DNA from: Campylobacterota bacterium
GTDB taxonomy: Bacteria; Campylobacterota; Campylobacteria; Campylobacterales; Sulfurimonadaceae
DNA: 64,000 nucleotides
Assembly (NCBI GenBank): GCA_040752835.1
Contig: JBFMGG010000007.1
Location: 186,001-250,000 of the forward strand
Direction: 5' to 3'
Shown piece by piece: positions 5,385 to 54,933 of the stretch. The translations under genes were made by a program, and so were the position numbers. The notes under the pieces were generated by a model. That model was not told the DNA's origin. It saw only the letters and a list, made by a program, of their open reading frames with translations, and searched no databases. The stretch's first letter is position 1. Each line of letters begins with the position of its first letter.

Positions 5385-5407
5385 TCCCATTTTTCAAGGA
5401 GACGTAA

Positions 5408-5845: not shown

Positions 5846-5851
5846 CGGGGG

Positions 5852-6418
5852 TCAGATACTCGTGTCGAGAAGATTGCCGCCCAGTGCGGCGATTCTCTCG
5901 TCGATGAGGGCGAGGGTTCGCTCCTGCGTTTGGTAGGAGATATCGGGCAGTTTCCCTCCCCACATCGCCTCGGCTTCCTCGAAACCGCGGATCACTCCTT
6001 CGCGTCCGGCTTTTAGCCGTTCAAGGTCCTCTCCCGCTCCCGATATAACGAAATCGGCTACCCGTTCAGAGGTTTGCTTGATGCCGAAAAATCCGTCTTC
6101 GGAGACCAGTGCGGCCGCTTCTTCGGGTGTCATGTCGGCAATCGGCTTGCCATCATACCCGATCGTTTCGAAATCGATCGTTTCCAGCAGATCGCGCACT
6201 TTGTTCAAATCGAACACGCCGCTTTGCGCGCTGAAGTTGTCTGCACTGTTTTTTTGCGCTTTTTGGGTGTATTCGACCAAATACGCCTCGGTCAGTTTTT
6301 TACCGCTGATCTCACCGCTTTTGACCTTTTCTTTAAACTCTTCGCGCTTGGTTTCATCCGACGAAATCCCTTTTTGGACGTAGGGGTTCGCCGAGGGGTG
6401 TTCGGAACCGATTTTCAT
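5852..6418 (-). CDS. Campylobacterota-specific protein, sometimes labelled hydrogenase-4 component G
   Basis: This is a 188-residue soluble, acidic protein with no signal peptide. Its C-terminal part (about 145-188: REGVIRGFEEAEAMWGGKLPD, then ISYQT) matches a protein type common in Campylobacterota that databases often call hydrogenase-4 component G. Nothing here supports a hydrogenase link, since no hydrogenase genes are nearby. The middle (VFDLNKVRDLLETIDFETIGYDGKP) is predicted helical. It lies convergent to mscL with six bases between the stop codons. The function is unknown and the name should not be read as a role. Confidence 0.75.
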   Translation of the reverse strand: MKIGSEHPSANPYVQKGISSDETKREEFKEKVKSGEISGKKLTEAYLVEYTQKAQKNSADNFSAQSGVFDLNKVRDLLETIDFETIGYDGKPIADMTPEEAAALVSEDGFFGIKQTSERVADFVISGAGEDLERLKAGREGVIRGFEEAEAMWGGKLPDISYQTQERTLALIDERIAALGGNLLDTSI

Positions 6419-6457
6419 AATACGCTCCTTTGTATGGATAATATAATATCGTCCGAT

Positions 6458-7669
6458 TCATTCGTGACGTAAAGCGTCGATCGGATTGAGGCGCGCCGCT
6501 TTGCGCGCGGGGAAATATCCGAACAAAATCCCCACAAGCGCCGAAAACAAAAAAGCGACGAGGATGATGAAGGTGTTGAAAATCAGCGGCAGGTCGAAAA
6601 AGAGGCTGATTGCAACCCCCGCGCCGACGCCGAGCACGACCCCGATGATACCGCCCAGTGAAGAGAGGACGATCGCTTCGACGAGAAACTGCAGCAGTAC
6701 TTCGCGCTCCAATGCCCCGATGGCGAGGCGTATCCCGATTTCGCGGGTCCTCTCGGTGACGGAGACGAGCATGATGTTCATAATCCCGATCCCTCCCACG
6801 AGGAGGCTGATTGCCGCTACCGCTCCCAGAAGGATTGTCAGCATCTGCGTCGTCGAAGAGAGGGTCTGGACCATTTCGCGCATGTCGCGCACGTTGAAGT
6901 CGTCCTCTTCCCCCCGTTGGATACGGCGCCGCTCCTGCAGCAGAAGGGTAACCGAGCTTTTGACCGCTTCGATGGCCGATGCCGATTCGGCGGAGATCAT
7001 GATGCGTGAAATGTCCTGGTTGCCGCTGATGCGGCGCTGAAACATCCGGATCGGCACGACGACGATGTCGTCTTGGTCCATCCCGAACATTGCGGCCCCT
7101 TTGGGGTCGAGAACGCCGATCACTTCGCACGAAAAACTTTCCAGCCGGATCGATTCGCCCAGAGGGGGCTGGTTGCCGAAGAGCTCCCGCCGAACCGTCT
7201 CGCCGATGACGCAGACCGCTTTACCCCCCTGGAGTTCCGCGTCCGAAAAGGGGCGTCCCGAGGCGAAAACCCAGTCTTTGATCGTGAAATAGTCGTTGTC
7301 GCTCCCCTCGACCGTCGTGGAGTAATTCTGGTTGCCGTACACCGCATGCATCGAAATCGATCCCACCGGGGCGGCGCCGCGGATACGGTCGATTTCGTGT
7401 TTGAGGGCTTCGACGTCGTTGTGGGTGAAACGCTTGGCCGTCAGATCGCTGCTGGGAGGCCCGCGGCGTTCCTGCCCCGGGATGACGACGAGCATGTTCG
7501 TTCCCAGTTTGGAAATGCTGTTCGTGACGTAGGCGGTCGTAGCGTCGCCCAGCATCACCATCGCGATGACGGATGCCACCCCGATGACGATCCCCAGGGT
7601 GGTGAGGATCGAGCGCATGGCGCTGCGGCGGATTTCACGTAGAGCGAGTAAAAAAGCGTTCCAGATCAT
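6458..7669 (-). CDS. MacB-type ABC transporter permease
   Basis: This 403-residue FtsX/MacB-family permease has a first transmembrane helix at about 20-42 (SILTTLGIVIGVASVIAMVM). A large periplasmic domain runs to about 285, and three C-terminal helices follow. MacB proteins act as mechanotransmitters that drive an adaptor and a TolC channel to expel substrates from the periplasm. Here the permease is separate from its ATPase, which is encoded immediately upstream with a 4-base overlap. It is the last gene of the operon outer-membrane factor, adaptor, ATPase, permease. The substrate could be a macrolide-like compound, peptide or lipid and cannot be told from sequence. Confidence 0.93.
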   Translation of the reverse strand: MIWNAFLLALREIRRSAMRSILTTLGIVIGVASVIAMVMLGDATTAYVTNSISKLGTNMLVVIPGQERRGPPSSDLTAKRFTHNDVEALKHEIDRIRGAAPVGSISMHAVYGNQNYSTTVEGSDNDYFTIKDWVFASGRPFSDAELQGGKAVCVIGETVRRELFGNQPPLGESIRLESFSCEVIGVLDPKGAAMFGMDQDDIVVVPIRMFQRRISGNQDISRIMISAESASAIEAVKSSVTLLLQERRRIQRGEEDDFNVRDMREMVQTLSSTTQMLTILLGAVAAISLLVGGIGIMNIMLVSVTERTREIGIRLAIGALEREVLLQFLVEAIVLSSLGGIIGVVLGVGAGVAISLFFDLPLIFNTFIILVAFLFSALVGILFGYFPARKAARLNPIDALRHE

Positions 7670-28850: not shown

Positions 28851-30158
28851 ATGAACAATTCGGAGATGGCGCGGCGCGATTTGAACGTTGTGTGGCATCC
28901 GTGCACACAGATGAAGGATCACGAGACTCTTCCGATGACGCCGATTTCACGCGGTGAAGGGGTCTGGCTCGAAGATTTTGAAGGGCATCGCTTCATCGAT
29001 GCGATCAGCAGCTGGTGGGTCAATCTTTTCGGTCATTCGAACCCCTACATCAACGGCAAAATCAAAGAACAGCTCGAAACCCTCGAACACGTCATTCTTG
29101 CAGGATTTACCCACGAGGGGGTCGTGCGCCTCTCCGAACGGCTCGTCGCCCTTTCACCCGAGGGGCTAACGCGCTGTTTTTATGCCGACAACGGTTCGAG
29201 CGCCATCGAAGTGGCGCTCAAGATGAGCTACCATTTTCATCGTAACCGTGGGGAGGAACGCCCTCTTTTCGTCTCTTTGTCGGAGAGTTATCACGGCGAA
29301 ACGCTCGGAGCCCTCGCGGTTGGGGACGTTTCGCTTTACAAAGAGACTTATGAGCCACTTTTGATCCGTTCACTGGTTACCCCTTCGCCCCGGGATCAGA
29401 GCCTTGAAGCGGCGCTCGAAGCCTCGGAAACATTCGGAAGACTTTTGAGGGAACGGGGCAAAGAGATATCGGCGCTGATCGTGGAACCGCTAGTGCAGTG
29501 CGCGGGAGGAATGAGAATGTACCATCCCCGTTTTCTCAGCGAAGCCAAGCGGTTGTGCGAAGAATACGGCATCCATTTTATCGCCGATGAAATCGCGGTC
29601 GGATTCGGTCGTACGGGGACGTTGTTTGCCTGCGAACAAGCCGGGATTTCACCTGATTTTATGGCTTTATCCAAGGGGCTTACCGGGGGGTATCTTCCTC
29701 TTTCTGTGGTTCTAACGACCGAAGAAGTGTACGGTGCGTTTTACTGTGATTACAACCCTGCAAAATCGTTTCTCCACTCACACAGTTATACCGGAAACGC
29801 TCTTGCCTGCGCCGCTGCCAACGCGACTTTGGACCTGTTCGAATCGGAATGTGTTATTGAATCGAACCGCCGCCTCATCGGGGTGATCGAACGGGAACTT
29901 AAACGGTTTGAACGTTATGAAAAGGTCAAGGAGACACGCCAGTGCGGGATGATCGCCGCCATCGAGCTTGACGGGTTCGATCCCAAAGCGCGGATCGGAC
30001 TCGAAATCCACCGGCGGTGCATGGAAAAAGGGGTGCTTATCCGTCCGCTGGGGAGCGTCGTGTACGTGATGACGCCCTACGTGATAACCCCTGATGAACT
30101 GGTGCGGGTATTCGATGCGATCGAGAGTGCGGTCGCGGCGATTTCAGTCGATGTCTAA
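28851..30158 (+). CDS. bioA: Adenosylmethionine-8-amino-7-oxononanoate aminotransferase
   Basis: This 435-residue PLP enzyme converts KAPA to DAPA in biotin synthesis, using AdoMet as amino donor. The N-terminal VWHPCTQMKDHE is the BioA hallmark, followed by ISSWWVNLFGHSNP and the PLP lysine Lys275 in LSKGLTGGYLPLS. I chose the ATG at 28851 behind GGGAGG; an upstream in-frame codon lies in a region with no ribosome-binding site. No other bio gene is beside it. Its 3' end overlaps the convergent aldolase-fold gene by 15 bases. Confidence 0.96.
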   Translation: MNNSEMARRDLNVVWHPCTQMKDHETLPMTPISRGEGVWLEDFEGHRFIDAISSWWVNLFGHSNPYINGKIKEQLETLEHVILAGFTHEGVVRLSERLVALSPEGLTRCFYADNGSSAIEVALKMSYHFHRNRGEERPLFVSLSESYHGETLGALAVGDVSLYKETYEPLLIRSLVTPSPRDQSLEAALEASETFGRLLRERGKEISALIVEPLVQCAGGMRMYHPRFLSEAKRLCEEYGIHFIADEIAVGFGRTGTLFACEQAGISPDFMALSKGLTGGYLPLSVVLTTEEVYGAFYCDYNPAKSFLHSHSYTGNALACAAANATLDLFESECVIESNRRLIGVIERELKRFERYEKVKETRQCGMIAAIELDGFDPKARIGLEIHRRCMEKGVLIRPLGSVVYVMTPYVITPDELVRVFDAIESAVAAISVDV

Positions 30159-30734
30159 ACGTGCCTGGGAGTGATCGAGCATCAGGATCCGGCAGCTGCG
30201 TTCGAGGATCGAGAGCTGGCGCACCATCGAGTGGATGTCGCGGCTGAAAGCGTAAACGCCGTATCCGCGGATGACCATGATCGAGGTGTTGTTCTGCTGG
30301 AAATACTGAGGGATTTCACTCACCGCCCGTTCGTACCAGTCGTCGAATTTTTTCGGGTCGTAGATGGCGATTTTGCCAAATTCCTTGAAGCCGAAATAGT
30401 CGTTGGGGATGATGATGCTGTGGTTCAACGAAAAGGCGGTCGTAAAGGGGGGCATCGTAAAGGTGATGAATTTGGCGTCCGATATCTGACGGTAAATCCC
30501 GTGGTGGATCGAGGCGTCGATGCTTGCCTCCTTCCAACGGTAATCTTTATTGTAAAAAAGATCGATGAGGCTGTTTTCGCCGATCGAATCGAAAATGGCG
30601 TTTTTCGTATTGATCGTGAAAAGATTGGTATCGAGTTTGGCCGAGAGCGAACCGTGATAGATTCCGAAAAAATCTTTCCGGAACATCGACAGGGCGAATG
30701 CGGCGAGCTGACGTTTTACGTTTTGTTTGTCCAT
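30144..30734 (-). CDS. Class II aldolase/adducin-fold protein lacking metal ligands
   Basis: This 196-residue protein follows the class II aldolase/adducin pattern (GIYHGSLSAKL, ASIHHGIYRQISDAKFI, IMVIRGYGVYAFSRDI, IHSMVRQLSILERSC). The three zinc-binding histidines of active aldolases are missing: the HTHPP segment reads FTMPP and the third (GHGVY) reads GYGVY. It is thus probably a non-catalytic member that binds a ligand or protein, or an enzyme with a different mechanism. It is transcribed towards bioA and away from a LysR gene. The family membership is clear but the role is unknown. Confidence 0.82.
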   Translation of the reverse strand: MDKQNVKRQLAAFALSMFRKDFFGIYHGSLSAKLDTNLFTINTKNAIFDSIGENSLIDLFYNKDYRWKEASIDASIHHGIYRQISDAKFITFTMPPFTTAFSLNHSIIIPNDYFGFKEFGKIAIYDPKKFDDWYERAVSEIPQYFQQNNTSIMVIRGYGVYAFSRDIHSMVRQLSILERSCRILMLDHSQARLDID

Positions 30735-30750
30735 GAAAAGGATTTTAGCA

Positions 30751-30756
30751 TATAAT
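30751..30756 (+). promoter_or_regulatory. -10 element for the LysR gene
   Basis: TATAAT in TTTTAGCATATAATAGTGC lies 25 bases before the ATG at 30781, with GAGGGG between. It supports the ATG at 30781 as the true start, since an earlier in-frame codon would place the promoter inside the gene. Confidence 0.55.
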
Positions 30757-30780
30757 AGTGCACAAATGAGGGGTGAAAAG

Positions 30781-31662
30781 ATGTTTACGCTGCGTCAACT
30801 TGAAATTTTTACGGCCCTGGCCGCCTCGTCCCGCGTTATCGACGTCGCCGAAACCCTCTCCATGAGTCCTTCGGCCGTTTCGATGGCGGTACGGGAGCTG
30901 GAGAAAGATTGCGGCGAAGAGCTGTTCGAGAGGATCGGCAAACGGCTGGTTCTCAATGAAAGGGGACGTTATTTTTACGAACATGCGGCCCGAATCGTCG
31001 ACAAATCGCACCGATTGTTCGAAACCTTTCAGGCCGATTCGATGGGCGGACATCTCTACCTCGCCGCCAGCGTAACGATCAGCAACTATCTTTTGCCCGA
31101 ATGGATCGGGGATTACCGTTCCGGGAATGAGACGGTCAAGGTATCGCTCAAAACCGCCAACAGTACCGAGGTGATCGAAATGGTCCGCAACGGGGGGTGC
31201 GATCTGGGATTCGTCGAAGGCAAATTCGACGAAAACGACATGGAATCCCTGCGGCTCATGAGCGACGAACTCGTCGTCATCGGAAGCGATCCGTCGTTAG
31301 CGGAGCGGGAGTATTTCATCGACGAACTGGTTGCCAGACGCTGGATCCTGCGCGAGCGGGGTTCGGGGACGCGCGAAATCTTCCTTTCGCAGATTGCCCC
31401 GGTCGACAAGGAACTGCAAATCGATATGGAATTCCAGCACAACGAAGCGATCAAGCGCTACCTGATGCACGACAAAGAAGCCCTCTCGTGCCTTCCCAGA
31501 CTCAGCGTTGCCGAAGAGCTGGATTCGAAAAAGATGTTCGAGGCCCGGATCATCGGTCATCGGTTCGAGAGGGAATTTCGTCTGATATGGAGAAAAGAGA
31601 AGACGCTGACACGGGTGATGCGCGATTTTAAACGTTATGTTAGTGAGCTTAGGATAGTATAG
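30781..31662 (+). CDS. LysR-family transcriptional regulator
   Basis: This regulator of about 293 residues has a winged helix-turn-helix at about 1-60 (FTLRQLEIFTALAASSRVIDVAETLSMSPSAVSMAVRELE) and a periplasmic-binding-like co-inducer domain (about 88-290). LysR proteins usually act on a gene divergent from their own; here the divergent neighbour is the aldolase-fold gene. The effector is not evident. The sequence is closest in style to the CysB/CbbR-like single regulators of Campylobacterota. The start at 30781 follows GAGGGGTGAAAAG. Confidence 0.93.
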   Translation: MFTLRQLEIFTALAASSRVIDVAETLSMSPSAVSMAVRELEKDCGEELFERIGKRLVLNERGRYFYEHAARIVDKSHRLFETFQADSMGGHLYLAASVTISNYLLPEWIGDYRSGNETVKVSLKTANSTEVIEMVRNGGCDLGFVEGKFDENDMESLRLMSDELVVIGSDPSLAEREYFIDELVARRWILRERGSGTREIFLSQIAPVDKELQIDMEFQHNEAIKRYLMHDKEALSCLPRLSVAEELDSKKMFEARIIGHRFEREFRLIWRKEKTLTRVMRDFKRYVSELRIV

Positions 31663-31674
31663 GGCGATAAAAAC

Positions 31675-32610
31675 ATGCAAGGAACCCCAGTGCAGGAAGC
31701 CCCCCATATTCCCGTTTTGTACCGCGAAGTGATCGAAGCGTTTTCGCCGTGTACCGACGGGATCGTCATCGACTGCACGATGGGGTACGCCGGGCATTCG
31801 TCGATGCTGCTCGAACACTATCCTGACGTTTCGCTGATCGGGATCGACCAGGACCCGGAGGCGATTGCGTTTTCTTCGCGCAGACTTGAACCGTTCGGCA
31901 AACGGGTCGAAATCCGACAGGGGCGTTTTTCCGACGTTGCACGTGAGGCCATCGCCGAAAAAGGGGATGCGATCTGCGGCATACTGGCCGACATCGGGGT
32001 GTCGTCTCTTCAGCTTGACCGGCGCGAGCGGGGCTTCTCGTACGAAAGCGACACCCTCGACATGCGGATGAATCCCGATGCGGCGCTGAGTGCGGCGGAC
32101 GTGGTCAATACCTATGGGCAAAGCGAATTGGAGACGATCCTGCGCGAATACGGCGAAGTGACCAATGCCCGCCGCGTTGCCGAAACGATCGTACAGCGTC
32201 GACCTTTCTATTCGGCCAAAGAACTTTCCGGTGCCATTTTCCATCTGATGCCCAAGGGGAAAAAAATACACCCCTCCACGCTGGTGATGCAGGCGATCCG
32301 GATCGAGGTAAACGACGAACTCGGGGAACTCGAGAGGCTGCTGGATGCGGTTGAACAATCGGACGTCAAGCAGATGAGGGTGGCGATCATAACATTTCAT
32401 TCCCTCGAAGACAGAATCGTCAAAAACCGCTTCGCGAAATGGTCGAAAAACTGTATCTGCCCAGCCGAAGCGATGCGCTGTACCTGCGGCAACAACCATG
32501 CGATCGGCAAGACCCTCACCAAAAAGCCGCTGAGTGCGCAGGAGGACGAATTGCGTTCCAACCCGCGCAGCCGGAGTGCGAAACTTCGCGTATTCGAGAT
32601 TCGACGATGA
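31675..32610 (+). CDS. rsmH: 16S rRNA m4C1402 methyltransferase RsmH (MraW)
   Basis: This 311-residue AdoMet methyltransferase modifies N4 of C1402 in the ribosomal decoding site. HIPVLYREVIEAF at the start, the AdoMet-binding DCTMGYAGHSSMLLE at about 33-47, then GVSSLQLDRRERGFSY and AIITFHSLEDRIVK near the end are family hallmarks. Its stop overlaps the ATG of the following ftsL-like gene, as is typical of the division cluster. Confidence 0.97.
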   Translation: MQGTPVQEAPHIPVLYREVIEAFSPCTDGIVIDCTMGYAGHSSMLLEHYPDVSLIGIDQDPEAIAFSSRRLEPFGKRVEIRQGRFSDVAREAIAEKGDAICGILADIGVSSLQLDRRERGFSYESDTLDMRMNPDAALSAADVVNTYGQSELETILREYGEVTNARRVAETIVQRRPFYSAKELSGAIFHLMPKGKKIHPSTLVMQAIRIEVNDELGELERLLDAVEQSDVKQMRVAIITFHSLEDRIVKNRFAKWSKNCICPAEAMRCTCGNNHAIGKTLTKKPLSAQEDELRSNPRSRSAKLRVFEIRR

Positions 32611-32885
32611 ACGACAAACACGATATCCTGGAAGAAACGAGAGAGATTATCGCCCCTGATGAGTCGATGGGGCCGGTCTTTTTACGCAACGTTTTTGTCG
32701 GGGTTTTTCTGGTTTTGATCGTCGTTTTTCCGAAAATTTTCATCAATACGCAGATCTATTTCAAAAGCCGTGAAATTTCGACCCTGACGCATGAACACGA
32801 TGCCCTGATGGAAGAGAACCGCCTGATCAAGGCCAAAGTGGAAGCCCTCAAATACAAAAACGAAATCCTCGATACCCAGTTTTGA
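32607..32885 (+). CDS. FtsL-like small division protein
   Basis: This 92-residue bitopic membrane protein has a cytoplasmic N-terminus, one helix at about 26-46 (RNVFVGVFLVLIVVFPKIF) and a periplasmic coiled coil (about 52-90: TLTHEHDALMEENRLIKAKVEALK). Its ATG overlaps the rsmH stop, exactly where ftsL is found in most bacteria. FtsL pairs with FtsB through such a coiled coil and helps activate the septal synthase. Sequence similarity to E. coli FtsL is expected to be weak, so position and topology carry the call. Confidence 0.8.
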   Translation: MNDKHDILEETREIIAPDESMGPVFLRNVFVGVFLVLIVVFPKIFINTQIYFKSREISTLTHEHDALMEENRLIKAKVEALKYKNEILDTQF

Positions 32886-32932
32886 TTTTTGAGCGAACGA
32901 TTCTCTATCGCATCAACTAAGAATTGTGGTGG

Positions 32933-32938
32933 TATAAT
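32933..32938 (+). promoter_or_regulatory. TATAAT -10 element
   Basis: GGTGGTATAATCGCG lies between the ftsL-like gene and the exported 135-residue protein gene, about 52 bases before its ATG. A 5-bp inverted repeat (GATCC-N8-GGATC, 32942-32959) follows directly at the expected transcript start. Confidence 0.5.
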
Positions 32939-32989
32939 CGCGATCCTAATGTTTGGATCAAGTTGGGTCCGAAACGGTCAGGATGTCGG

Positions 32990-33397
32990 ATGAAAAAGCT
33001 TTTTTTCGTTTTAGCGATGACGGCGGCGATGCTTCAGGCGGCTCCGTGGAGGGAATCGAAAAGCTTTGTTTTGCCGAAGGACCGTACCGTGAAGGTGCTG
33101 GTAAAAAGCGAAGGGCTCGAACGTCTTCTCTCTTTTCGATGGACGCTGTATGCTGATAAAGGGCTCGTCGTGCACGAAAATTTTGATCGGTTTGTGGGAC
33201 AGCATGTTTTGTACGCGTCACATACTAACCAAAGTTTTCGAAAGCGGCTGCTTCCGGCGAAAAAGAGCGAAAAAGACGTTCCCTACATTGTCGTCGTATT
33301 CAAAAAATTCGACGAAGGGGCGAAAACCGCGCAGCTTGACCTGCTGTTGTTCGACAAAGAGCAGCGGATCATGCTCGAGTATTTAACGGAGAAGTGA
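32990..33397 (+). CDS. Exported protein of 135 residues, unknown
   Basis: The ATG at 32990 gives a signal peptide (KKLFFVLAMTAAMLQAA) and a mature part of about 116 residues with alternating beta segments and many Lys/Phe. An upstream open frame exists but lacks both a signal peptide and a ribosome-binding site. There are no cysteines in the mature part and no membrane segment. It overlaps the start region of the polyprenyl synthase gene. I recognise no family; a periplasmic location is all that can be stated. Confidence 0.72.
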   Translation: MKKLFFVLAMTAAMLQAAPWRESKSFVLPKDRTVKVLVKSEGLERLLSFRWTLYADKGLVVHENFDRFVGQHVLYASHTNQSFRKRLLPAKKSEKDVPYIVVVFKKFDEGAKTAQLDLLLFDKEQRIMLEYLTEK

Positions 33398-33405
33398 TAA
33401 AGAGG

Positions 33406-34296
33406 ATGCAAGAAAAGGTAGAAACACTCATTGCCAAACTCGTCGAAGAGGTCGATTATCCCAAAGCGGCAGAGCTTTTTGCAAAGCTTTCGGGGGGAAA
33501 ACGGCTCCGCGCGCGGCTGATCCTCACGATCGCCCCCGAAGCCCCTGAAGCGCCTCTTCTAGGGGCCATCGTCGAACTGATCCATGCGGCCAGCCTCCTG
33601 CACGACGACGTAATCGACGAAGCGATGCTCCGGCGCGGCGTCCCTTCGGTGAATGCGACCCACGGCAGCAAAGTCGCCATTATGCTCGGCGATATCCTCT
33701 ACTCCAAAGCGTTCAGCTCTCTTACGGCTTTTGACCCCGCCATTTCCCGTGCCGTTGCCGAATCGGTCACCCGTCTCTCGATCGGGGAGATGATGGATGT
33801 CGAGATGGCCGAAACGTTCAATACCGATCGGGAACTGTATCTTAAAATGCTCTATCTCAAAACGGCGACGTTGATCGAAGCCGCCGCCTTTTCGGCCGCT
33901 CTTCTGGCAGGCAAGGATGCACAGTCGTACGCAACGTACGGAAAAAATCTCGGTCTGGCGTTTCAGATCGTCGATGACATCCTCGATATCACTGCCGACG
34001 AAGCGACGCTCGGTAAGCCCTCATTGAACGATTTTGTAGAGGGGAAAACGACGCTTCCCTACATTGATCTGTACGATGCGCTAGACGTTCCGGGTCGTGA
34101 AAGGCTCCGGAATTCCCATGCCCGTCCGATCGACGAGGCGGAGAAAAGGTGGATCCGTTCGCGAATGGATGAACACGGGGTGATCGAGCGTTCATACGCC
34201 TTCGCGCGCTCCCTTTGCGACGAAGCGACTGCGGCGGTAGGGAATGATCTTCCTCTCCACGCCATCATCGAATCCGTTTTGAAAAGAAGTAACTGA
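33406..34296 (+). CDS. ispB: Polyprenyl diphosphate synthase
   Basis: This trans-isoprenyl diphosphate synthase of about 296 residues makes the side chain for menaquinone. Both aspartate-rich motifs are present: LLHDDVIDEAMLRRG (first, about 66-80) and FQIVDDILDIT (second, about 186-196), along with the GGKRLRARL start motif. I chose the ATG at 33406 after AAAGAGG; a GTG four codons earlier is in frame. The gene stop overlaps the hemA ATG, and the order ispB-hemA-proS-hemC is conserved in Campylobacterota such as Helicobacter (from memory). Confidence 0.93.
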   Translation: MQEKVETLIAKLVEEVDYPKAAELFAKLSGGKRLRARLILTIAPEAPEAPLLGAIVELIHAASLLHDDVIDEAMLRRGVPSVNATHGSKVAIMLGDILYSKAFSSLTAFDPAISRAVAESVTRLSIGEMMDVEMAETFNTDRELYLKMLYLKTATLIEAAAFSAALLAGKDAQSYATYGKNLGLAFQIVDDILDITADEATLGKPSLNDFVEGKTTLPYIDLYDALDVPGRERLRNSHARPIDEAEKRWIRSRMDEHGVIERSYAFARSLCDEATAAVGNDLPLHAIIESVLKRSN

Positions 34297-35588
34297 TGCA
34301 CTATCTCATCGTCAGCTTTTCACACCGCAACTCGACGCTTGCCATCCGCGAAAAGCTGGCATTTGTAAACGAATCCGAACAGCTCGAAGCCCTGGCGGCG
34401 CTGAGACGCTGTAGCGCCATCGGCGAGTCGATGCTCCTCTCCACCTGCAACCGGGTCGAAATTTTTTGCAGCTGCAACGATACCGAAGCGGCGACAGAAG
34501 CGATTTTCGCTCTTCTTTCGAAGCGTTCGGGGATCGGACACGAAGAGTTGCACGAGCGGGGCGATATTTTCGATGACGAAGGGTGCATCCACCACCTTTT
34601 CAGCGTTGCCAGTTCGCTCGATTCGATGGTTGTGGGTGAGACTCAGATCGCGGGGCAGCTCAAAGACGCGTTCCGCCTTTCGCAGGAAAACGGCTATTCG
34701 GCTCAGAAAATTTCGCGGGCAATGGGATTTGCGTTCAAATGCGCCGCAGAGGTCCGAAACGCAACCAATATCTCCTCCAAACCGGTTTCGGTGGCGAGCG
34801 TGGCGGTATCCAAAGCCAAAGAAAGTGTCGGTAGCCTTGAGGGGAAAAAAGCCCTTGTCATCGGCTCAGGGGAGATGTCGGTCATCACCTGCAAGCACCT
34901 GAGCGCTCAGGGTGCGGAGGTGACGATGATGAACCGCACCTTCGAGAAAGCCGAAGAGATCGCGCGCGAATGCGACGCCCGGGTCCGGTCGTTCGAAGAG
35001 ATTGCTTACGCCATCAACGATTACGAGCTGCTCTTTACGTCGACAGGGTCGATCCATCCCATCATCACCGAGGAGATGATTTCCCAGACGCCGTATAAGC
35101 GGTACTGGTTCGACATGGCCGTCCCGCGCGATATCGATTGCGATGGGGCGAAGTGGGGAATATCGCTTTATTACGTCGATGATTTGCAGGAGATCGTGAG
35201 CGAAAACATTGCCCTGCGCGAAGACGAGGCGAAAGTCTCCTATGTGATCGTCCGCCGGCATGTCGTGCAGTTTTTCGAATGGCTTAAAACCCTCTCGATC
35301 GAACCGCTGATCAAGACCCTTTATCTTCGTGCCGAAGAAGCGGCCGATGAGGAGGCGTTCCGCGTTATCCGTAACGGCTATATCCCCGAAGAATACGAAT
35401 ATGCCGTCCGCAAAGCGGCCATCCAGACGCTGAAGCGGTTTTTGCACCCCTTCGCCGAACGGATGCGCGACGGATCGGATCCTCTCAAAGTGGATGCGCT
35501 GATCGAAGCGATGAATTTTTTACTCGACAGCGAGGACGGATCCGACCTCTCCCAAAAAGCCTGTACCTATCATACGAAAGGAAAATGA
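34296..35588 (+). CDS. hemA: Glutamyl-tRNA reductase
   Basis: HemA reduces glutamyl-tRNA to glutamate-1-semialdehyde with NADPH, the first committed step of the C5 pathway of haem synthesis. The 430-residue protein contains the catalytic loop [12 protein letters not shown] with Cys50, [13 protein letters not shown], the NADPH-binding ALVIGSGEM, and a C-terminal dimerisation helix region. It is coupled by base overlap to ispB upstream and proS downstream. Confidence 0.97.
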
Positions 35589-37291
35589 TGCGTTTTAGCA
35601 AAGCCTATATCCCCACTACCAAAGAGTCTCCCAAAGACGCCCAGCTCCCGAGCCACATCTATCTCTCCCGCGCCGGTTTTATAGCGCAGGTCGCGAGCGG
35701 TCTGTACAACTTTCTGCCGCTGGGCAAGCGGGTGTTGCGTAAGATCGAAAACATCATCAACGAAGAGATGTCCGCGTGCGGCGCGTTGGAAGTCGATCTC
35801 AGTTTCGTTACTCCCGCCGAGCTGTGGGAAGAGAGCGGTCGCATCGAAAAATTCGGTAAAGAACTCCTCCGTTTCCGCGACCGGAAAGAGAATCTTTTCG
35901 TTCTGGGACCGACGCATGAGGAGATGATGGTCAACATCGTTCGTAACCGCGTCACGAGTTACAAACAGCTTCCGCTGAACGTTTACCAGATCAAAACGAA
36001 ATTCCGCGACGAGGCCCGCCCCCGGTTCGGTTTGATGCGCGCCCGCGAATTCGTCATGAAAGACGGTTACAGCTTCCATGCGACGACCGAGGACCTCGAT
36101 CGTGAGTTCGATGCCATGGAAGCGGCGTACAAACGGGTTTTGGAACGTCTTGGGCTGACGTTTCGCATCGTCGAGGCCGACAGCGGAGCGATCGGCGGGA
36201 CCGGATCGAAAGAGCTGATGGTTCTGGCCCAGAGCGGGGAAGATACCCTTGCGGTCTGCGATACCTGCGAATACGGCGCGAACGTTGAAGCGGCGCGCCG
36301 TGCTCCCCGTTCGACGGTTCCCGAAGCGCCGGAGGCCGATTTCATGCGGTTTAAAACGCCGGGCGTCAAATCGATCGACGACCTGTCCGCCTTTTTCAAG
36401 GTCGACTCCTATTACACGCTCAAAGCGGTGGTCCAGCGGGCCGTCTATACCGAAGGGAGCGAACTGGTCTGTTTCTTCCTCCGGGGTTGCGACGAACTTC
36501 AGGAAGTCAAGGCACGCAACAGCGTCGGGGCGATCGATCTCGTCGACGCGGGCGAGGAAGAACTCCGTTCGATCGGTCTTGTACCCGGATTCATCGGGCC
36601 GCTCGATCAGGATAAAATCCGTATCGTCATGGACAGCGATACCCGTAATGCGACGTCCATGATCTGCGGTGCGAACGAAGAGGACTACCACTTCGTAGGC
36701 GTTGATCTGAGCGTGATGGGCGAAGCCCATTTTGCCGATCTGGCGAGCGTTCAGGAAGGGGACGGATGCCCCCACTGCGGAGGGAAGCTCCTCCATACCA
36801 AAGGGATCGAAGTCGGGCATATCTTCAAACTGGGGACCGTTTACTCCGCGCCGCTGAAGGCCGAATTCCTGGACGAAAACGGCCGTTCCCAGCCTTTTAT
36901 CATGGGTACGTACGGGATGGGGGTCAGCCGTCTCGTCGCCGCCGTGATCGAACAGCACCACGACGAACGCGGGTGCATCTGGACCCCCGCGACGGCTCCT
37001 TATCTCGTCAACGTCATGGTGTCGAACGTCAAAGAAGAGACCCACCTCTCCTATGCCGAAAAACTGTACGGCGAACTTCAGGCCAGGGGGATCGAAACGA
37101 TTCTTGACGACCGTAAGGAACGTTTCGGATTCAAGATGTCCGATGCCGAGCTGATCGGATTCCCTTTTACGGTTATCGTAGGAAAAGAACTCGACAACGG
37201 CTCGGTGCAGATCATGATCCGCGCTACCCGCCAGATGGTCACCGTCGATGCCGACAAAGTGATTGAAACGCTTGAGGAACTGCGGGGATGA
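35585..37291 (+). CDS. proS: Prolyl-tRNA synthetase
   Basis: This 568-residue class II aminoacyl-tRNA synthetase of the bacterial long type charges tRNA-Pro. Motif 2 ([19 protein letters not shown]) is at about 138-156, motif 3 with [14 protein letters not shown] is near 441-454, and an insertion (editing) domain lies between them at about 225-385 and would remove mischarged Ala. The ATG overlaps the hemA stop, and a second ATG follows directly. The fxsA gene overlaps its end by four bases. Confidence 0.97.
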
Positions 37292-45926: not shown

Positions 45927-48250
45927 TCGTTACGAAGAATTGGTTAAACGAATGGATTGATCTTGGGGGTATCAGTACCGAACACCTCCTCAAAACGTTC
46001 AATGCCATCGGGCTGGAAGTCGACCGCCACGAAACGATCCGCGTCCCTGACGGCGTCGTTATCGGATACGTCGAACAGTGCGAACGCCATCCCGATGCCG
46101 ACAAACTGAGCGTTTGCCAGGTCAACATCGGCTCGGGCGTCCGGCAGATCGTCTGCGGTGCCTCGAACGTTCGTGCGGGAATCCATATCGCGCTCGCGAC
46201 GGTCGGTTCCGAACTTCCCGGCGGACTGAAAATCAAAGCAGCCAAACTTCGCGGCGTCCCTTCGGACGGAATGATCTGTTCGAGTAAAGAGATCGGCCTC
46301 CCTTCGACCGGCGAGGGGATTATGATCCTTGATGGCAGTATCGGGGAACTGGTTCTGGGGAAAAATCTCAACGAGTACCCGCTTTTCAACGACGATCTGA
46401 TCGAAATCGAGTTGACCGCCAACCGAGGCGACTGTCTGAGCATCCGGGGTATCGCCCGCGATCTGCGCGCCGCTTTGAACCGCCCGTTGCGCGAATGCGC
46501 CAAAAACGAGAGTCAGGAACGCCTGGGAATCGGCCGCATTTTGCAGCTCCATCACAACGAAACGTTTGATGCCGACTTGCTTTTCGGGGCCGTCGAGGTC
46601 AAAGAGTTCGATGTCCCTTTCATGATCGTGTTGCGTCTGGCACTGATCGAGGGGGAATATTCGACTCCGGTTGAAGCGGTGTTGCTCTATTCGACCCACA
46701 GCACGGGGGTAATCCTCAGAGCGTACCCGTTTGAAAAATTCGGCGACCACGATACGAAGGGAATCATCACCCTTGATACGGACGAAAACGGCTACACGGC
46801 GCTTTATGGCAAGGAAAAAGTCTCGGTGATCGGCGTTTCGCAGGAGAAAGAGGCCCGCTTCAGTGCCAAAGAGGGGCTGGCAATCATCGAAGCCAGCTAT
46901 ATCGCTCCCGATATCATCTCCAAAAAGATGGGGGAGAAGAAAGTCCCCAGCTGCGCGCACTATTACCGTACATCCCGGGGCAGCGAACCCAAAATCGACA
47001 TGGGGATCGCGTATGCGATGCGTCTGTTCGAAAAATTTTCGTCGTCCCAGGTGTACGGCGGGAATATCGAGCTGCTCTCTTCGTACGAGCCGCGCATCGT
47101 CAGCATGAGCGAAGAAGAGATCGCCTCGTTCATCGGGATGCGCGTCGATAAAACGACGATTACCCAGATTTTCAAAAACCTGGGGATGGAGATCGGCAAG
47201 CCCAAAGGATCGACGTTTGCGATTTCGATTCCGCAGTTTCGCCACGACATCGTGAACAAGCAAGACATCGTCGAAGAGATCGTCCGCATCGTCGGCATCG
47301 ACAACATCCCCTCCAAGCCGCTTTATTTCGCCGAAGCGAACCGTGCGGGCGATGACCTGAACGAATACCGCAAAACGCGGATGTATCGCCATCGCGCCGC
47401 GCAGAGCGGGTTTTACGAATCGGTCCATTTCGTTTTTAACGAACGCACACAGCTTGAAAAATACGGGTTCGTCTGCACCGACGAGTCCAAAGAACTGATC
47501 AACCCGATTACCGCCAATTTCGATACGCTTCGGCCGACCCTTCTGATGGGGCTTTTGAACTCCGCATCGGCGAACGTCAAAGTGAATCAGAAAAAAATTG
47601 CCCTGTTCGAAGCGGGGATGGTGTTCGATGCGGATCGTAAAGAATCCAAGCGTCTAGGGTTTATCGTTTCGGGTGCGGTGCAGGGTGAAAAAGTTGCCAA
47701 TGCCGGCAAGCCCGCCTCCATCGATTTCGCGTCGTTCGTCCAGATGATATCGGACGTGGCGGGTTCGTTTGAACTCGTTTCGCACGTTCCCTCCCATTCC
47801 CTCGCACACCCTTACGTTTGTGCGAAAGTGATGATCGCCGGGGTCGAGGCGGGGGAACTTTTCCGCGTTCACCCCAGTGTGGAGGAAGCGTTCGACCTTC
47901 CGCAGACGTTTATGTGCGAGCTCAAAACCGATCTTCTCCCATACGGCTTGATCCAGGCGCAGCCGTACTCGAAGTACCAGGCGTCGTATCGCGATTTGAG
48001 CATCGTCGTTTCGAAAGAGACGGCGTACGAAACGATCAAAAATGTCATTGAAAAACACGTCTCCCCTCAGGTCCGTCGGTTCTATCCCGTCGACCGCTAC
48101 GTCTCCGAAGCGCTGGGTGACCAGATGAGCCTGACGCTGCGGTTTGTTCTGCAGTCGGAGGAAAAGACGCTGGAAGAGGAAGATATCACCGCCGCGATGG
48201 AATGGGTGCTGGACGGTTTGAAAAACGAACTCGGGGTAAGCTTGCGATGA
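45923..48250 (+). CDS. pheT: Phenylalanyl-tRNA synthetase beta subunit
   Basis: This 775-residue partner of PheS has an N-terminal tRNA-binding OB domain (about 40-150), B3/B4 editing regions, a core repeat domain and a C-terminal ferredoxin-like anticodon-binding domain (about 685-775, ending [20 protein letters not shown]). It overlaps pheS by four bases and aroA by four. Confidence 0.97.
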
Positions 48251-49524
48251 CGAAAGCGAAAGTCCATCCGGTCCACTCCTTCGCGTTCAAGAGCAACGCG
48301 ATCGCGCCCGACAAATCGATTTCGCACCGATGCGCCATGTTCGCCGTTCTGGCCGAAGGGGAGAGTAAGGTCCGCAATTTTCTCCGTGCCGAGGACACCC
48401 TCAATACCCTCAAAATCGTCGGTCATCTGGGGGCGGATATCCTGGATGAGGGAGAAACCATCACGATCCGCTCCAACGGGATAAAAGAGACGAGCGAAAT
48501 CCTTGACTGCGGGAACTCCGGGACGGGGATGCGGCTGTTTTGCGGCCTCCTCTCTTCGGCGGAGGGGCATTTTGTCCTCACCGGTGACGAGTATCTCAAA
48601 CGCCGCCCGATGAAACGGGTGACCCAGCCGCTGCGCTCCATCGGTGCGAAGCTCGACGGACGCAACAACGGTGACCTGGCTCCCCTTTCGATCCGGGGCG
48701 CGTCGCTCAAATCGTTCGATTATACATCTCCGGTCGCATCGGCGCAGGTCAAAAGCGCCATGATGCTCGCAGCGCTCCGTTCAGACGGTGTCTGCACATT
48801 CCGTGAGCCGGAACTGAGCCGTGACCACACCGAACGGATGTTGCGGGGGATGGGGGCACGCATCGAGGTAAACGGCCTTGAGACCAAAATATGGCCTTTG
48901 GAAAAACCGCTTTCGCCGCTGGATATCCGTGTGCCTGCCGATCCTTCCAGCGCTTTTTTCTTCGCCGTAGCGGCGGCGATCGTCCCCGGGGCATCGGCCC
49001 TGATCGAAGGGGTCACCCTCAACCCGACCCGTATCGAAGCGTTTAAAGTATTGGAAAAAATGGGGGCCAAGATCACCTATACCCTCACCGACGAGCGGTA
49101 CGAGCCGATCGGCAACATTCGCGTCGAGTACGCCCCTCTTAAAACCGTTACCGTCGAGGAAAACATTGCGTGGCTCATCGACGAGCTCCCGGCTCTTTCT
49201 GTGGCCATGGCGTGCGCGGAAGGGAAAAGCGTCGTCAAAAATGCCGAAGAACTTCGGGTCAAAGAGTCCGACCGGATTAAAACGGTGGTTGATAACCTGA
49301 ACCTCTGCGGCATCGAAACCGAAGAGTATCCCGACGGCTATGCGGTGATCGGCGGAGAGCTCAAATCCGCCACCGTGAACAGTTACGGCGACCATCGGAT
49401 CGCCATGAGTTTCCTGATTGCGGGGCTGAGATGCGGGATGGAGGTCGAAGACGTCGAATGCATCAATACCTCCTTCCCTAACTTCTTTGAGCTCCTCGGC
49501 ACTTTTGCGAAGGTAGAACGATGA
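48247..49524 (+). CDS. aroA: 3-phosphoshikimate 1-carboxyvinyltransferase (EPSP synthase)
   Basis: AroA adds enolpyruvyl from PEP to shikimate-3-phosphate on the route to aromatic amino acids. The 425-residue protein has [17 protein letters not shown] near the start, [17 protein letters not shown] near 85, and [15 protein letters not shown] near 337. I chose the ATG overlapping the pheT stop; the open frame continues 15 codons upstream inside pheT without a start signal. Confidence 0.97.
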
Positions 49525-50351
49525 AAATCGAGCTGGCCGAAAGTTACGGATTCTGTTTCGGTGTGAAACGGGCGATCAAAATTGCCGAAGAAAACCGCAA
49601 CTCTTCCACCTATGGCCCGCTTATTCATAATGCCAACGAGATCGCGCGACTCAAAAACGATTTTAACGTCGCGTTGAGCGAAAATCTCGATACCTTCAAA
49701 GCCGGAGATACTGCCGTCATTCGAACCCACGGTATTCCCAAAGAAGAACTTGCCCTCCTGAACCGCCGCAACGTGAACGTCGTCGATGCGACGTGTCCTT
49801 ACGTTACCAAGCCCCAGCAAATCGTCGAGGAGATGAGTACTCAGGGGTACGATATCGTCATTTTCGGAGACGAAGCCCACCCCGAGATCAAAGGGGTCAA
49901 AAGCTATGGTGTGGGCAACGTATTCGTCATCAACGCTCCCGAGGAGATCGATGCGCTTAAACTGCGCGAAAAAGTGGCCACCGTCGCACAGACGACCCGC
50001 AAGATCGAAGATTACCGACAAATCGTCGGAAAGCTGATGGAAACGCACAAGGAGGTGCGGGTATTCAACACGATCTGCAACGCGACGTTCGACAACCAGG
50101 ATGCCGTACGCGCATTGGCCCAAAAAGCCGACGTGATGGTGATCATCGGCGGCAAAAACTCTTCGAACACCAAACAGCTCTACGCCATTTCCAAAGAATT
50201 CTGCCCTGACAGTTATCATATCGAGAGCAAAGACGATCTCGAGCCCGGCTGGTTCAGCGGAAAAGAGTTCTGCGGGATCAGCGCGGGAGCTTCGACACCT
50301 GATTGGATCATCGACGAAGTTGTCGAAGCGATCGAGCATCTTCGCCGATAG
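49521..50351 (+). CDS. ispH: 4-hydroxy-3-methylbut-2-enyl diphosphate reductase
   Basis: IspH (LytB) is the last enzyme of the MEP isoprenoid pathway and uses a 4Fe-4S cluster. Its three ligand cysteines are present: Cys in [11 protein letters not shown] (about 12), [12 protein letters not shown] (about 95) and [11 protein letters not shown] (about 191). The 276-residue length is typical. It overlaps aroA by four bases. In related genomes rpsA usually follows directly; here the two-partner secretion pair lies in between. Confidence 0.97.
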
Positions 50352-50526
50352 ATTTCCGTTCCCCTCTTTTTCCTTCACGAGAAACGTATCCGTACTTTGT
50401 TGTCTGAGTGTCGATACACGTACCGCTGCAACGTCCGTACAACAAAACTGCAACACATTTGCAACTCTATCGTCGGATAATTCCACCACAGGGTAATACA
50501 CCCGAATAATCATACAAGAGGATTCA

Positions 50527-50595
50527 ATGATGAAGGGCAATCCGGATTAAAGTTCGCGTTTTCGTATTCTCAAAGGTGGAAAAATATCGCTTGTC
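50527..50595 (+). other. Severed signal-peptide start of the TpsA gene
   Basis: A normal start (AAGAGG, then ATG ATG at 50527 and 50530) opens a seven-codon frame (MMKGNPD) closed by TAA at 50548-50550. The same frame then runs on without another stop for 898 codons. Reading past the TAA gives a basic n-region (SSRFRILKGGK) joined to a hydrophobic core and a cleavage site, all expected of a TpsA signal peptide. The TAA thus splits one gene rather than ending a short one. Confidence 0.75.
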
Positions 50596-53244
50596 GTGTC
50601 GGCATTGCTTGCAGGATCGAGCATCGCGTACGCCGCACCAAGCGGAGGCACCGTAACGACAGGCAGCGCAACCATCAGCCAAAACGGCAGCGTTACCACC
50701 ATCAGCCAGTCTACCAACAAGGCCTCGATCAACTGGCAGGATTTCAGCATCGGCAAGAGTGAAACGGTCAACTTCGTACAGCCTTCCGCCGCCTCGGTTA
50801 CGCTCAACCGTGTCATCGGGACCAACCGTTCTCTTATCGAAGGGGCAATGAACGCGAACGGACAGGTATTCCTCATCAACCCTAACGGGATTTTATTCGC
50901 CAACGGCGCACAAATCAATGTGGGGGGGATCGTAGCCTCTACGCTCAATATTACCGATGCGAACTTCCAATCAGGCAACTATGTCTTCGAAGGTAACAGC
51001 CAGAATTCGGTCCTCAACATGGGAACGATTACAGCTGGCAACGGCGGTTACGTGGCAATGATGGGTAAAACCGTAGCCAATGAAGGGACCATCGTTGCGA
51101 CGATGGGGAACGTACAGATGGCGTCAGGCGAAAAGATCAGCCTCAATCTCAACGGCAACTCTCTCGTAAAGCTGACCATCGATCAGGGAACGATGGATGC
51201 CCTGGTAGAGAATAAAGGGCTTATCAAAGCCGACGGAGGTCAAGTCTACCTGACCACCCAGGCGCTCAACACCATCCTGGACGGAATGGTGAACAATACC
51301 GGGATCATCGAAGCGCAGACACTCGAAGACGTGACGGGCAAGGTCGTTCTTTTCGCTCACGGCGGGACGGCGGATATCGGCGGGACGATCAAAGCCGAAG
51401 GGGGATTCGTCGAAACGTCCGGGAAAGAGTTTACTATTGCCGACGGGACAACGGTGAAAGCCGGAGAATGGTTGATCGATCCGGTCAACATAACGATCGA
51501 TTCAACACTTGCATCGGCCATTGAAACAGGCTTGGCCGGCGGTAATGTCAAAATTACGACCGATACGACAGATGGCACTCGCTTGGATACAACAAGCGGA
51601 GAAAGCGGTACGGATGGAAATATCAATGTTAATTCGGCCATTACATGGTCATCAAACAATACGTTGACCCTTTCGGCATACAACAACATCAATGTCAACG
51701 AAAATATCACCCATACGGGTACTTCGGCCGGCGGAATTATTTTTCTCTACGGGCAGGGAAGCAGTGATGGAGGCAGCAGTGCCTACAGCGTCGCGGGAGG
51801 CAAGACGGTTACCTCTCCGTCGATCCAATGGCGCAAGGGAAGTGACCTGGCCGGGACCCGTTATGCCGTTGTCAACGGAGATGTTTTTCTCGGTGGAAAA
51901 TACATTGAAATCGGGATCAACCTGGCATCGGGAGGAAAATTCGGAACGACAAGCAAACCCAGCCTGTTCTTCGGGCGTCAAAGCGGTGCAGGCGTAGGGA
52001 TGACGGGGGATGCTGACGGTTTCGGAACGGGGAGCGATCTTCGCATCGACTATTTTTTACCCGGTTCACCGTATGAAGCGTTTTCGGCACAGTACGAAAT
52101 CGGCGGGACACCTACCACGGCAACAAATTTCGTATCGTCGGGCAATTCCGGAACGATCGTTTTGTCTCCTTTGGATTCAAGCGGTGTGATGGAAGCCGTT
52201 GTGACGACGACATTAGGCGGAAATCTCAAAACTGAACAAACGATTACTCTTGGAAAAGATAATAAGTATTTTAACAATGAGGTTAAATTGACGAACGTCG
52301 GAGCAACGGCCTTGGAAGACGTTACGTTCATCCGCAGTTTTGACCCTGACAATACTGTCGATATGGGCGGAAGTTATACCACGATCCAAAAAATAGATCA
52401 GAAAGTCTCGGCCGGCGATTCGGCTACGGTTGTCAGTGCGACAAGCCAGGCCGGCGATGCTTATGCGATTGCTTCCGGCGGCAATCAGTCCAAAATTATT
52501 TATTATACGACCGACAGTCGTGCCAACGTCGGTTACGGTTCCCCGTTTTTCGGCGGAACGGTAGCCAATATGCTGTCAACTGCGGCGACACAGTCCAAAG
52601 GGGATACCGCTACGGGCGACCGCGGTATCGGAATCATCCTTGAAGCAGGGAACCTTGCGACCGGGGGAAGCGCAACATTTAACTATCTGACGTCGCTCGA
52701 TAACCGCGAAATGAGCACCATTCTCAGCGAACTGAATGTTGCCGGAGGAGCTTCGACTCCTACTCCGGCTCCGGTGCAGGAAACGACTACAAATTCTGCA
52801 TCGGAAAAACAGGCTAAAAACGTTGTTACGACAATCGTAAATTCGACCGTTGCCCCTGCCGTGCCGGTCGTGCAATCTCCCGCAACGATGCCACAGCCGA
52901 TTTCGGTACAGACACAGGCGCAAAACACCGCATTGCTTAAAACGATCATTCCGCAAAACGGTTCGGGTATCGGAAACTCTTTCGGTTTGGTCGGGACAAG
53001 CGAGGGGACGACTCCGGTTCAGACGGTAACGATGGAACAGCTTCAGACGGCCGCTACGGTACAGGGAACCGGCGATATCCGCGTACCGCTGGCCAACGAC
53101 AGCCTGGTCGAATTGGTAAACGGGGGACTGAACCTTCCCAAAGGGGTCAGCCAGGAGTTTTACGTCGTTGCGGACAACGCTGTGAGCGGAAGCGGGAACA
53201 ACGGAATGAACGTTGAGCCGAACAATGAAAATGAGAAAAGATAA
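50596..53244 (+). CDS. TpsA adhesin of a two-partner secretion system (haemagglutinin N-terminal domain)
   Basis: This frame has 882 residues from the first start codon (GTG) after the TAA. Residues 16-235 form the TPS secretion domain, with NWQDFSIGKSETVNF, NRVIGTNRSLIEG and the hallmark NPNGIL at 95-100, as in FhaB and HMW1. A second domain at about 430-715 (FFGRQSGAGVGMTGDADGFG, RSFDPDNTVDMGGS) recalls a domain seen in other large exported proteins. The C-terminal tail is Ala/Thr/Gln-rich and lacks a membrane anchor. The tpsB gene follows nine bases after the stop. From the GTG the basic part of the signal peptide would be lost, so export needs readthrough of the TAA or another start. Confidence 0.85.
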   Translation: MSALLAGSSIAYAAPSGGTVTTGSATISQNGSVTTISQSTNKASINWQDFSIGKSETVNFVQPSAASVTLNRVIGTNRSLIEGAMNANGQVFLINPNGILFANGAQINVGGIVASTLNITDANFQSGNYVFEGNSQNSVLNMGTITAGNGGYVAMMGKTVANEGTIVATMGNVQMASGEKISLNLNGNSLVKLTIDQGTMDALVENKGLIKADGGQVYLTTQALNTILDGMVNNTGIIEAQTLEDVTGKVVLFAHGGTADIGGTIKAEGGFVETSGKEFTIADGTTVKAGEWLIDPVNITIDSTLASAIETGLAGGNVKITTDTTDGTRLDTTSGESGTDGNINVNSAITWSSNNTLTLSAYNNINVNENITHTGTSAGGIIFLYGQGSSDGGSSAYSVAGGKTVTSPSIQWRKGSDLAGTRYAVVNGDVFLGGKYIEIGINLASGGKFGTTSKPSLFFGRQSGAGVGMTGDADGFGTGSDLRIDYFLPGSPYEAFSAQYEIGGTPTTATNFVSSGNSGTIVLSPLDSSGVMEAVVTTTLGGNLKTEQTITLGKDNKYFNNEVKLTNVGATALEDVTFIRSFDPDNTVDMGGSYTTIQKIDQKVSAGDSATVVSATSQAGDAYAIASGGNQSKIIYYTTDSRANVGYGSPFFGGTVANMLSTAATQSKGDTATGDRGIGIILEAGNLATGGSATFNYLTSLDNREMSTILSELNVAGGASTPTPAPVQETTTNSASEKQAKNVVTTIVNSTVAPAVPVVQSPATMPQPISVQTQAQNTALLKTIIPQNGSGIGNSFGLVGTSEGTTPVQTVTMEQLQTAATVQGTGDIRVPLANDSLVELVNGGLNLPKGVSQEFYVVADNAVSGSGNNGMNVEPNNENEKR

Positions 53245-53253
53245 GGATCTGCG

Positions 53254-54933
53254 ATGATGAAACGAACCATTACCCTTTCCCTGCTGGCATCGGTCTCTTT
53301 GATGGCTGCCGCACCCACGACAGGAGACATCCTCCGCCAAGTGGAACAGCCGAAGCTTCCTGAGACACCCAAAGCGCTACCAAGTGTCGGAGCGGGGGAA
53401 TACAAAGCGCCGCTTGAAGCCAAAGACACGGTAAAAGTCTTTGTAAAATCGTTCAAATTCAGCGGAAACACCGTTTTCGGATCGGACGTTCTGGCTGAAC
53501 TGGTCAAACCCTACGAGGGGAAAGAACTGGGGATCAACGCTCTCAAAGAAGTCGCTTCGATCATCACCAAATACTACCGAGACCGGGGCTATTTCGTCGC
53601 CCGTGCCTACATCCCCGCGCAAAGCATGGAGAACGGCATCGTCGAGATTGCGATCATCGAAGGGACGTACGGATCGTTCGACATGAAAAACAGCTCTCTG
53701 GTCGATACCGCCGAAGTACAGGGATTCATGGACCATCTCAAGCAAGGTCAGATCGTCTCCACGATGAGCCTTGAGCGCCAGATGCTTCTCATCAACGATC
53801 TCTCGGGTGCGCAGGTGACCAACGCCGAAGTTTACCCGGGAGAGGCAGTCGGAACCAGCGACTTTCGCATCACCGTCTCCCCGACGCCCAAATACAACGG
53901 CTATGCCATAGTCGATAATTACGGAAGCCGCTACACCGGAGAGAACCGTCTGAGTGCGGGTGGTTACATCAACAGCCTCACCGGAATCGGCGATACCCTG
54001 AGTATAACCGGGCTCGTCTCCAACACCGCCGATCTCAAAAACATCCGCCTGGGGTACGATCGCCCGCTGGGATATTCGGGACTCAAAGGCGGGGTGAGCT
54101 TCAGCCTGACCGACTATACCCTCGATGAGATCGAGAACTACGACGCGTACGGACGGACCGACAGTTACAGCGCCTACGTCAGTTACCCGACAATCAAGAC
54201 CCGCGCCCACACGCAAACCCTCGAAGCGTCGTACGATCATAAAGAGATGAAAGACAGCAGCGGAACTCCCGGAGCCCTCGACGAAGCGAAAAAACAGCTC
54301 GACGCCCTGACGCTCAAGGCAAGCGATAAACGTAATACCTCGCTCGCCGGCCTTCCCGGAAGCCTGTATGCTTCGGCGGGATACACGATCGGCCATCTGG
54401 GACTTAAAAACGGTACGGCCATCACCAACGATGCGGGGCTCAATTCGGGAGGCAACTACACCAAACTGGCCCTGAACGCATTGCACAGCCAGTACCTCAG
54501 GGACGGAATGACCCTCCAGAGCACTTGCAAAGCCCAAAAAAGCTTCGGTAACAACCTCGATTCTTCCGAAGATCTCTCGGTAGGCGGAACCAACGGCGTT
54601 CGGGCTTACGAAGACAGCGAACTCAGCGGCGACCAGGGGTATGCGATCAGCCTCGATTTGATCTACGCTCTCCCGTCGCTGCGGCAGATCAGCCATAGCA
54701 CCAGCATCTTTTTGGACCATGCCAAAGTGTGGAAAAACGATACGACGTTTAACAGTGACGATAATATCCGCACGCTCAATGCCGTCGGGGTAGGGTATGC
54801 CATGAATTACGGCAATTTTGACCTTAAAGCAACCCTTGCGCACGGGTTCGGCGATGAACGCCGCCCCCAGAGCGAAGCGGAATTCCACACCAACTCCAAC
54901 AAATTCCTCCTGCAGGGAATGATGCGGTTCTAA
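53254..54933 (+). CDS. TpsB outer-membrane transporter (FhaC/ShlB type)
   Basis: This 559-residue partner exports the adhesin encoded just upstream. A signal peptide (TITLSLLASVSLMAAA) is followed by a POTRA domain of the ShlB type (about 60-135: FKFSGNTVFGSDVLAELVKPY, YYRDRGYFVARAYIPAQ). A 16-strand barrel ends in phenylalanine (GMMRF). The L6 loop motif, usually VRGY/F, reads VRAY in NGVRAYEDSELSGDQG. The frame has no disruption, in contrast to the tpsA start. A strong hairpin follows. Confidence 0.94.
   Translation: MMKRTITLSLLASVSLMAAAPTTGDILRQVEQPKLPETPKALPSVGAGEYKAPLEAKDTVKVFVKSFKFSGNTVFGSDVLAELVKPYEGKELGINALKEVASIITKYYRDRGYFVARAYIPAQSMENGIVEIAIIEGTYGSFDMKNSSLVDTAEVQGFMDHLKQGQIVSTMSLERQMLLINDLSGAQVTNAEVYPGEAVGTSDFRITVSPTPKYNGYAIVDNYGSRYTGENRLSAGGYINSLTGIGDTLSITGLVSNTADLKNIRLGYDRPLGYSGLKGGVSFSLTDYTLDEIENYDAYGRTDSYSAYVSYPTIKTRAHTQTLEASYDHKEMKDSSGTPGALDEAKKQLDALTLKASDKRNTSLAGLPGSLYASAGYTIGHLGLKNGTAITNDAGLNSGGNYTKLALNALHSQYLRDGMTLQSTCKAQKSFGNNLDSSEDLSVGGTNGVRAYEDSELSGDQGYAISLDLIYALPSLRQISHSTSIFLDHAKVWKNDTTFNSDDNIRTLNAVGVGYAMNYGNFDLKATLAHGFGDERRPQSEAEFHTNSNKFLLQGMMRF

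Follow-up and report, generated by a model that had tools for sequence, protein, structure and literature searches.

A probable recent nonsense mutation in the leader of a two-partner secretion adhesin gene of an environmental Sulfuricurvum

The tpsA–tpsB locus and its genomic setting

We analysed a 64,000-nucleotide stretch of DNA (here called the window; C7:186001-250000), which lies deep within a 734-kb contig of a 2.13-Mb genome assembled into 11 contigs (99.5% complete and 0.03% contaminated). Judged by its named relatives, which are Sulfuricurvum MAGs that carry the same type of locus, the genome is an environmental member of the genus Sulfuricurvum. The window encodes a tpsA gene that ends 9 nt before the start of tpsB (Table 1). 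An earlier note on this DNA had described a ribosome-binding site, two adjacent ATG codons that open a seven-codon frame, a TAA stop and a continuation of the same frame to the end of tpsA, and we found all of these at the same positions. Its description of the rest of tpsA and of tpsB as clean also holds: the tpsA frame contains no further stop, and the matches of TpsB to ShlB and POTRA_2 are above the cut-off.

By sequence, tpsA is a two-partner secretion substrate. The TPS domain is present (the product also matches TIGR01901, E 3.6e-23), as is an adjacent TpsB with POTRA and ShlB domains; an intact Sec signal peptide that runs from the start codon is absent, with TAA at codon 8. The locus resembles type Vb TpsA/TpsB systems of the filamentous-haemagglutinin/HMW type (PF05860 and TIGR01901, with a ShlB/FhaC-type TpsB) in its TPS domain, its Sec-type leader and its adjacent tpsB with POTRA domains and a ShlB barrel. 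It differs from them in that a stop interrupts its leader and its passenger matches no Pfam family. The only other TPS-domain protein of this genome (G000:C6:5720-6460; L001) is encoded in a frame that stays open for about 2,136 codons; its leader differs, and it has a TpsB-like neighbour of its own.

The nearest genome that we compared, G036, shares approximately 88.7% identity with the window genome across a 380-kb contig. Identity rises to 98–99% at around 47000–51500 of the window, against approximately 88% contig-wide and 85–90% on the flanks, and a second block of high identity to G036 lies near 30000–36000. These blocks suggest recent exchange between the two lineages. The passenger segment of tpsA is swapped between the window (51358-52731) and its otherwise near-identical G036 counterpart (L028), with the TPS domain and the extreme C terminus retained; a third genome, G062, has the passenger of the window.

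Table 1 Features of the tpsA–tpsB locus, in window coordinates
Feature	Position	Strand	Basis or remark
Shine–Dalgarno-like AGAGGA of tpsA	50517..50522	+	Sequence; anti-SD duplex −5.8 kcal/mol; identical in G036
Seven-codon ORF MMKGNPD, truncated by TAA	50527..50550	+	Sequence; ATG at 50527 and 50530
In-frame TAA	50548..50550	+	Nearly all relatives have Tyr or Phe in this alignment column
Rest of tpsA, no further stop	50551..53244	+	Open reading frame
Leader motif FRILKGGKISLVV: basic n-region and start of hydrophobic core	50560..50598	+	Little or no variation in alignments A1 and A2
GTG, first standard in-frame start codon (of ATG, GTG and TTG) past the TAA	50596..50598	+	A start there loses every Lys/Arg of the leader
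AYA-A, predicted signal-peptidase site region	50626..50637	+	Read from the sequence
TPS secretion domain, PF05860	50629..51357	+	Pfam E 2.9e-37; residues 12–254 of the 882-residue frame
Passenger segment	51358..52731	+	79% amino acid identity with G062; replaced in G036
tpsB, intact outer-membrane transporter partner	53254..54933	+	ShlB, POTRA_2; dN/dS approximately 0.08 versus G036

A conserved leader in Campylobacterota

The N termini of TpsA proteins in Campylobacterota follow the pattern M-(about 5-9 residues)-[FY]-S-S-R-FRILKGGKISLVVSALL-...-A-x-A-(A/S)P, and the window sequence fits it on both sides of the TAA, which stands in the aromatic column. The earlier note had proposed that the residues on either side of the stop join into one export signal. 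This is borne out by 59 other genomic copies of the leader, all of them intact, and by the G036 DNA, which is 99% identical. Because both flanks agree with a leader that is whole in the other copies, the stop cuts a single leader and the start has not been mis-chosen.

In Campylobacterota, the near-invariant block [FY]SSRFRILKGGKISLVVSALL (50551-50610 in the window) forms the leader of TpsA proteins and of classical autotransporters alike. Among the leader-bearing proteins examined, 25 of 29 contain a TPS domain. Autotransporters (PF03797) with the FRILKGGK leader include two in the Sulfuricurvum genome G004 (L204:1044-3410 and 3548-6952) and four more in genomes G221, G262, G088 and G317 (L236, L237, L238 and L239). 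The leader matched no Pfam or NCBIfam model, and the extended signal peptide region (ESPR) model PF13018 matched none of the leader-bearing TpsA proteins or autotransporters (E up to 1 in one search and 0.001 in another). A literature search for the motif, or for extended signal peptides in Campylobacterota, returned none in a partial coverage of the literature.

Like the ESPR of type V secretion, the Campylobacterota leader is strongly conserved and common to type Va and type Vb proteins. It differs from the ESPR in sequence (FRILKGGKISLVV), in that its conserved block makes up the n-region and is not an extra 25-residue extension, and in that it was found here in Campylobacterota only. By analogy, the motif may be a lineage-specific extended signal peptide, a counterpart of the ESPR. 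Its conservation in the set from our contig scan was partly selected for, as FRILKGGK was one of the two seed patterns.

When 299 Campylobacterales genomes were searched with a profile of the leader, a test less biased by the seed although the profile had been built from the same leaders, 36 genomes yielded a total of 60 matches, and only the copy in the window carries a stop. Across 43 distinct leaders, the stop column holds Tyr in 23, Phe in 16, Thr in 2, Ser in 1 and a stop in 1. TAA codons had also been flagged inside three other homologues; in two (L020 and L024), alignments show that the codon falls where the protein itself ends, at its C terminus, and L004, for which the local alignment broke off earlier, is consistent with this. 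Further leader-bearing tpsA fragments occur in G264 (L210/L241; 110 amino acids followed by a stop) and in G291 (L226/L242; cut by the end of a contig).

Origin and age of the in-frame stop

Comparison of the same codon in close relatives, which the earlier note had called for, found a sense codon there and showed that the TAA is private to the window genome. Over the 1,068 bases that surround the site, G036 shows 99% identity to the window; it has the same Shine–Dalgarno sequence and starts, and encodes an aromatic residue through a codon that differs from the TAA by one base. The G062 orthologue is full length and stop-free (897 amino acids, 78% identity over 892 codons, with the same passenger), and its tpsA is followed by tpsB and then by an ORF that matches the rpsA of the window. 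Because neither orthologue carries the stop, it would have arisen on the window’s own branch or be an assembly error. The stop is thus derived and absent from orthologues, as in a nonsense pseudogene.

Of the four explanations in the earlier note—recent nonsense mutation, assembly error, readthrough acting as a control and a rare start after the TAA—the first is favoured by the sense codon in relatives. We consider it the probable explanation that a recent nonsense mutation in the tpsA leader has produced an allele that is off or nearly off.

An error of sequencing or assembly, with a sense codon and an intact tpsA in the true genome, is the alternative that fares best, although we regard it as unlikely. 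In its favour, a single base separates the window codon from that of the closest relative, and the rest of tpsA and its operon is intact and was under selection. However, the difference is a substitution, and the sequence around it is non-repetitive, contains neither a homopolymer nor a repeat and lies far from the ends of the 734-kb contig, so that the surroundings give no hint of an error, and the assembly is of high completeness and low contamination. When 323 genes were checked for intactness against G036, the window assembly showed approximately one nonsense-like and three frameshift-like breaks; in the reverse check of 326 genes, G036 showed two nonsense-like breaks and one frameshift-like break, with one gene counted in both classes. 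As the counts are similar in both directions, the window assembly is not error-ridden.

If the base is real, as appears probable, the age of the stop can be gauged from the gene behind it. Codons 9–277 of the frame (269 codons, covering the TPS region) differ from those of G036 by six synonymous and no nonsynonymous changes. Nonsynonymous sites outnumber synonymous ones by approximately 3.2 to 1, and under neutral drift the window branch would be expected to have gained about 8 to 10 amino acid changes since the split; none was observed. Because these expected changes are missing, sequence comparison indicates that selection on the TPS region held until recently or still holds, the counts being too few to separate the two. 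Past the stop, tpsA shows no decay (no nonsynonymous change in the TPS region versus G036 and no further stops) at a time when few substitutions have accumulated since the split, so the mutation would be recent, or little has been lost so far. The time scale is shortened further because the TPS region sits in the recently exchanged block.

In-frame stops in bacterial genes are mostly short-lived (PMC7918605). Like the transient in-frame nonsense alleles described by Belinky et al. in 2021 (PMC7918605), the tpsA of the window has a single in-frame stop, a constrained remainder, intact close relatives and an apparently young age; it differs in that its stop is carried by one genome only and so gives no measure of persistence.

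Expression from the interrupted gene

The absence of further decay in the 882 remaining codons and in tpsB fits a young mutation and would equally fit continued function. One way in which function could continue is that chance misreading of UAA, or a restart downstream at GTG 50596 or at the non-standard ATT 50566 or ATA 50584, yields enough protein to matter. We judge this to be a slim possibility. The lack of nonsynonymous changes in the TPS region is compatible with it, as are an SD-like run, AAAGGTGG, immediately 5′ of ATA 50584, 15 nt before GTG 50596, and the argument that in-frame stops are frequently tolerated in bacteria (PMC7918605). Against it, UAA has the lowest readthrough of the three stops (PMC5289835), none of the 42 tRNAs of the genome has a suppressor anticodon, the SD-like run is the coding sequence of the conserved KGGK and is also present in intact relatives, and the number of substitutions is too low to tell a young stop from a gene still in use. 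The GTG, which the earlier note had correctly described as lacking the basic part of the leader, would cost the protein all four Lys/Arg residues together with the invariant FRILKGGK; the rare start that the note had proposed could therefore serve as a weak leak at most. It appears less probable again that the stop is real and dims a surface protein, the adhesin, which would still be supplied in small amounts by leaky decoding of UAA or by a non-standard start within the conserved leader. Even so, the case against a weak rescue by a later start is less strong than that against programmed readthrough.

The least credible reading is that the TAA underlies an on/off switch or is read through in a programmed manner, and the proposal in the earlier note that readthrough serves as a control was not supported. 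The sole support for such a device is the clean continuation of the frame, against a stop that is private to one genome (1 of 60 leaders). Neither a conserved stop with a stimulatory context nor a decoding tRNA or reassignment was found: RNA folding around the stop gave z-scores of +0.5 to +1.4 (less stable than shuffled sequence), no stop anticodon occurs among the tRNAs, and TAA is not reassigned, because it is the natural end of tpsA in relatives. Other forms of switching were considered and rejected. There are no repeats around the stop for slipped-strand or inversion phase variation, the leader is present once in the genome and so has no donor copy for gene conversion, and the other two frames near the stop offer no suitable start or return point for a frameshift bypass.

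We therefore return to the recent nonsense mutation as the favoured reading. A single-codon change in the window lineage alone would have turned codon 8, which lies within the signal peptide, into a stop, and ribosomes that initiate at the good ATG would terminate after seven residues. The exported adhesin would then not be made, or would be made in traces through leaky termination or weak internal starting, and TpsB would be left without its usual substrate.

Independent changes are seen elsewhere in the group. The complete genome G172 (L240:1255-3368) carries a tpsA that is broken after codon 256; what follows lies in an overlapping frame, and tpsB is retained. Together with the passenger swap in G036, this case indicates that remodelling and loss also affect Tps genes of this group in other genomes.

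The TAA itself is of little weight: it would add a clear-cut case of a young nonsense allele to a class of genes, the surface adhesins, that is often lost or remodelled, and it cautions that readthrough should not be called from a single genome. The leader that it interrupts, which the curated models examined do not cover, may be the mark of an export signal particular to this lineage and comparable to the ESPR.
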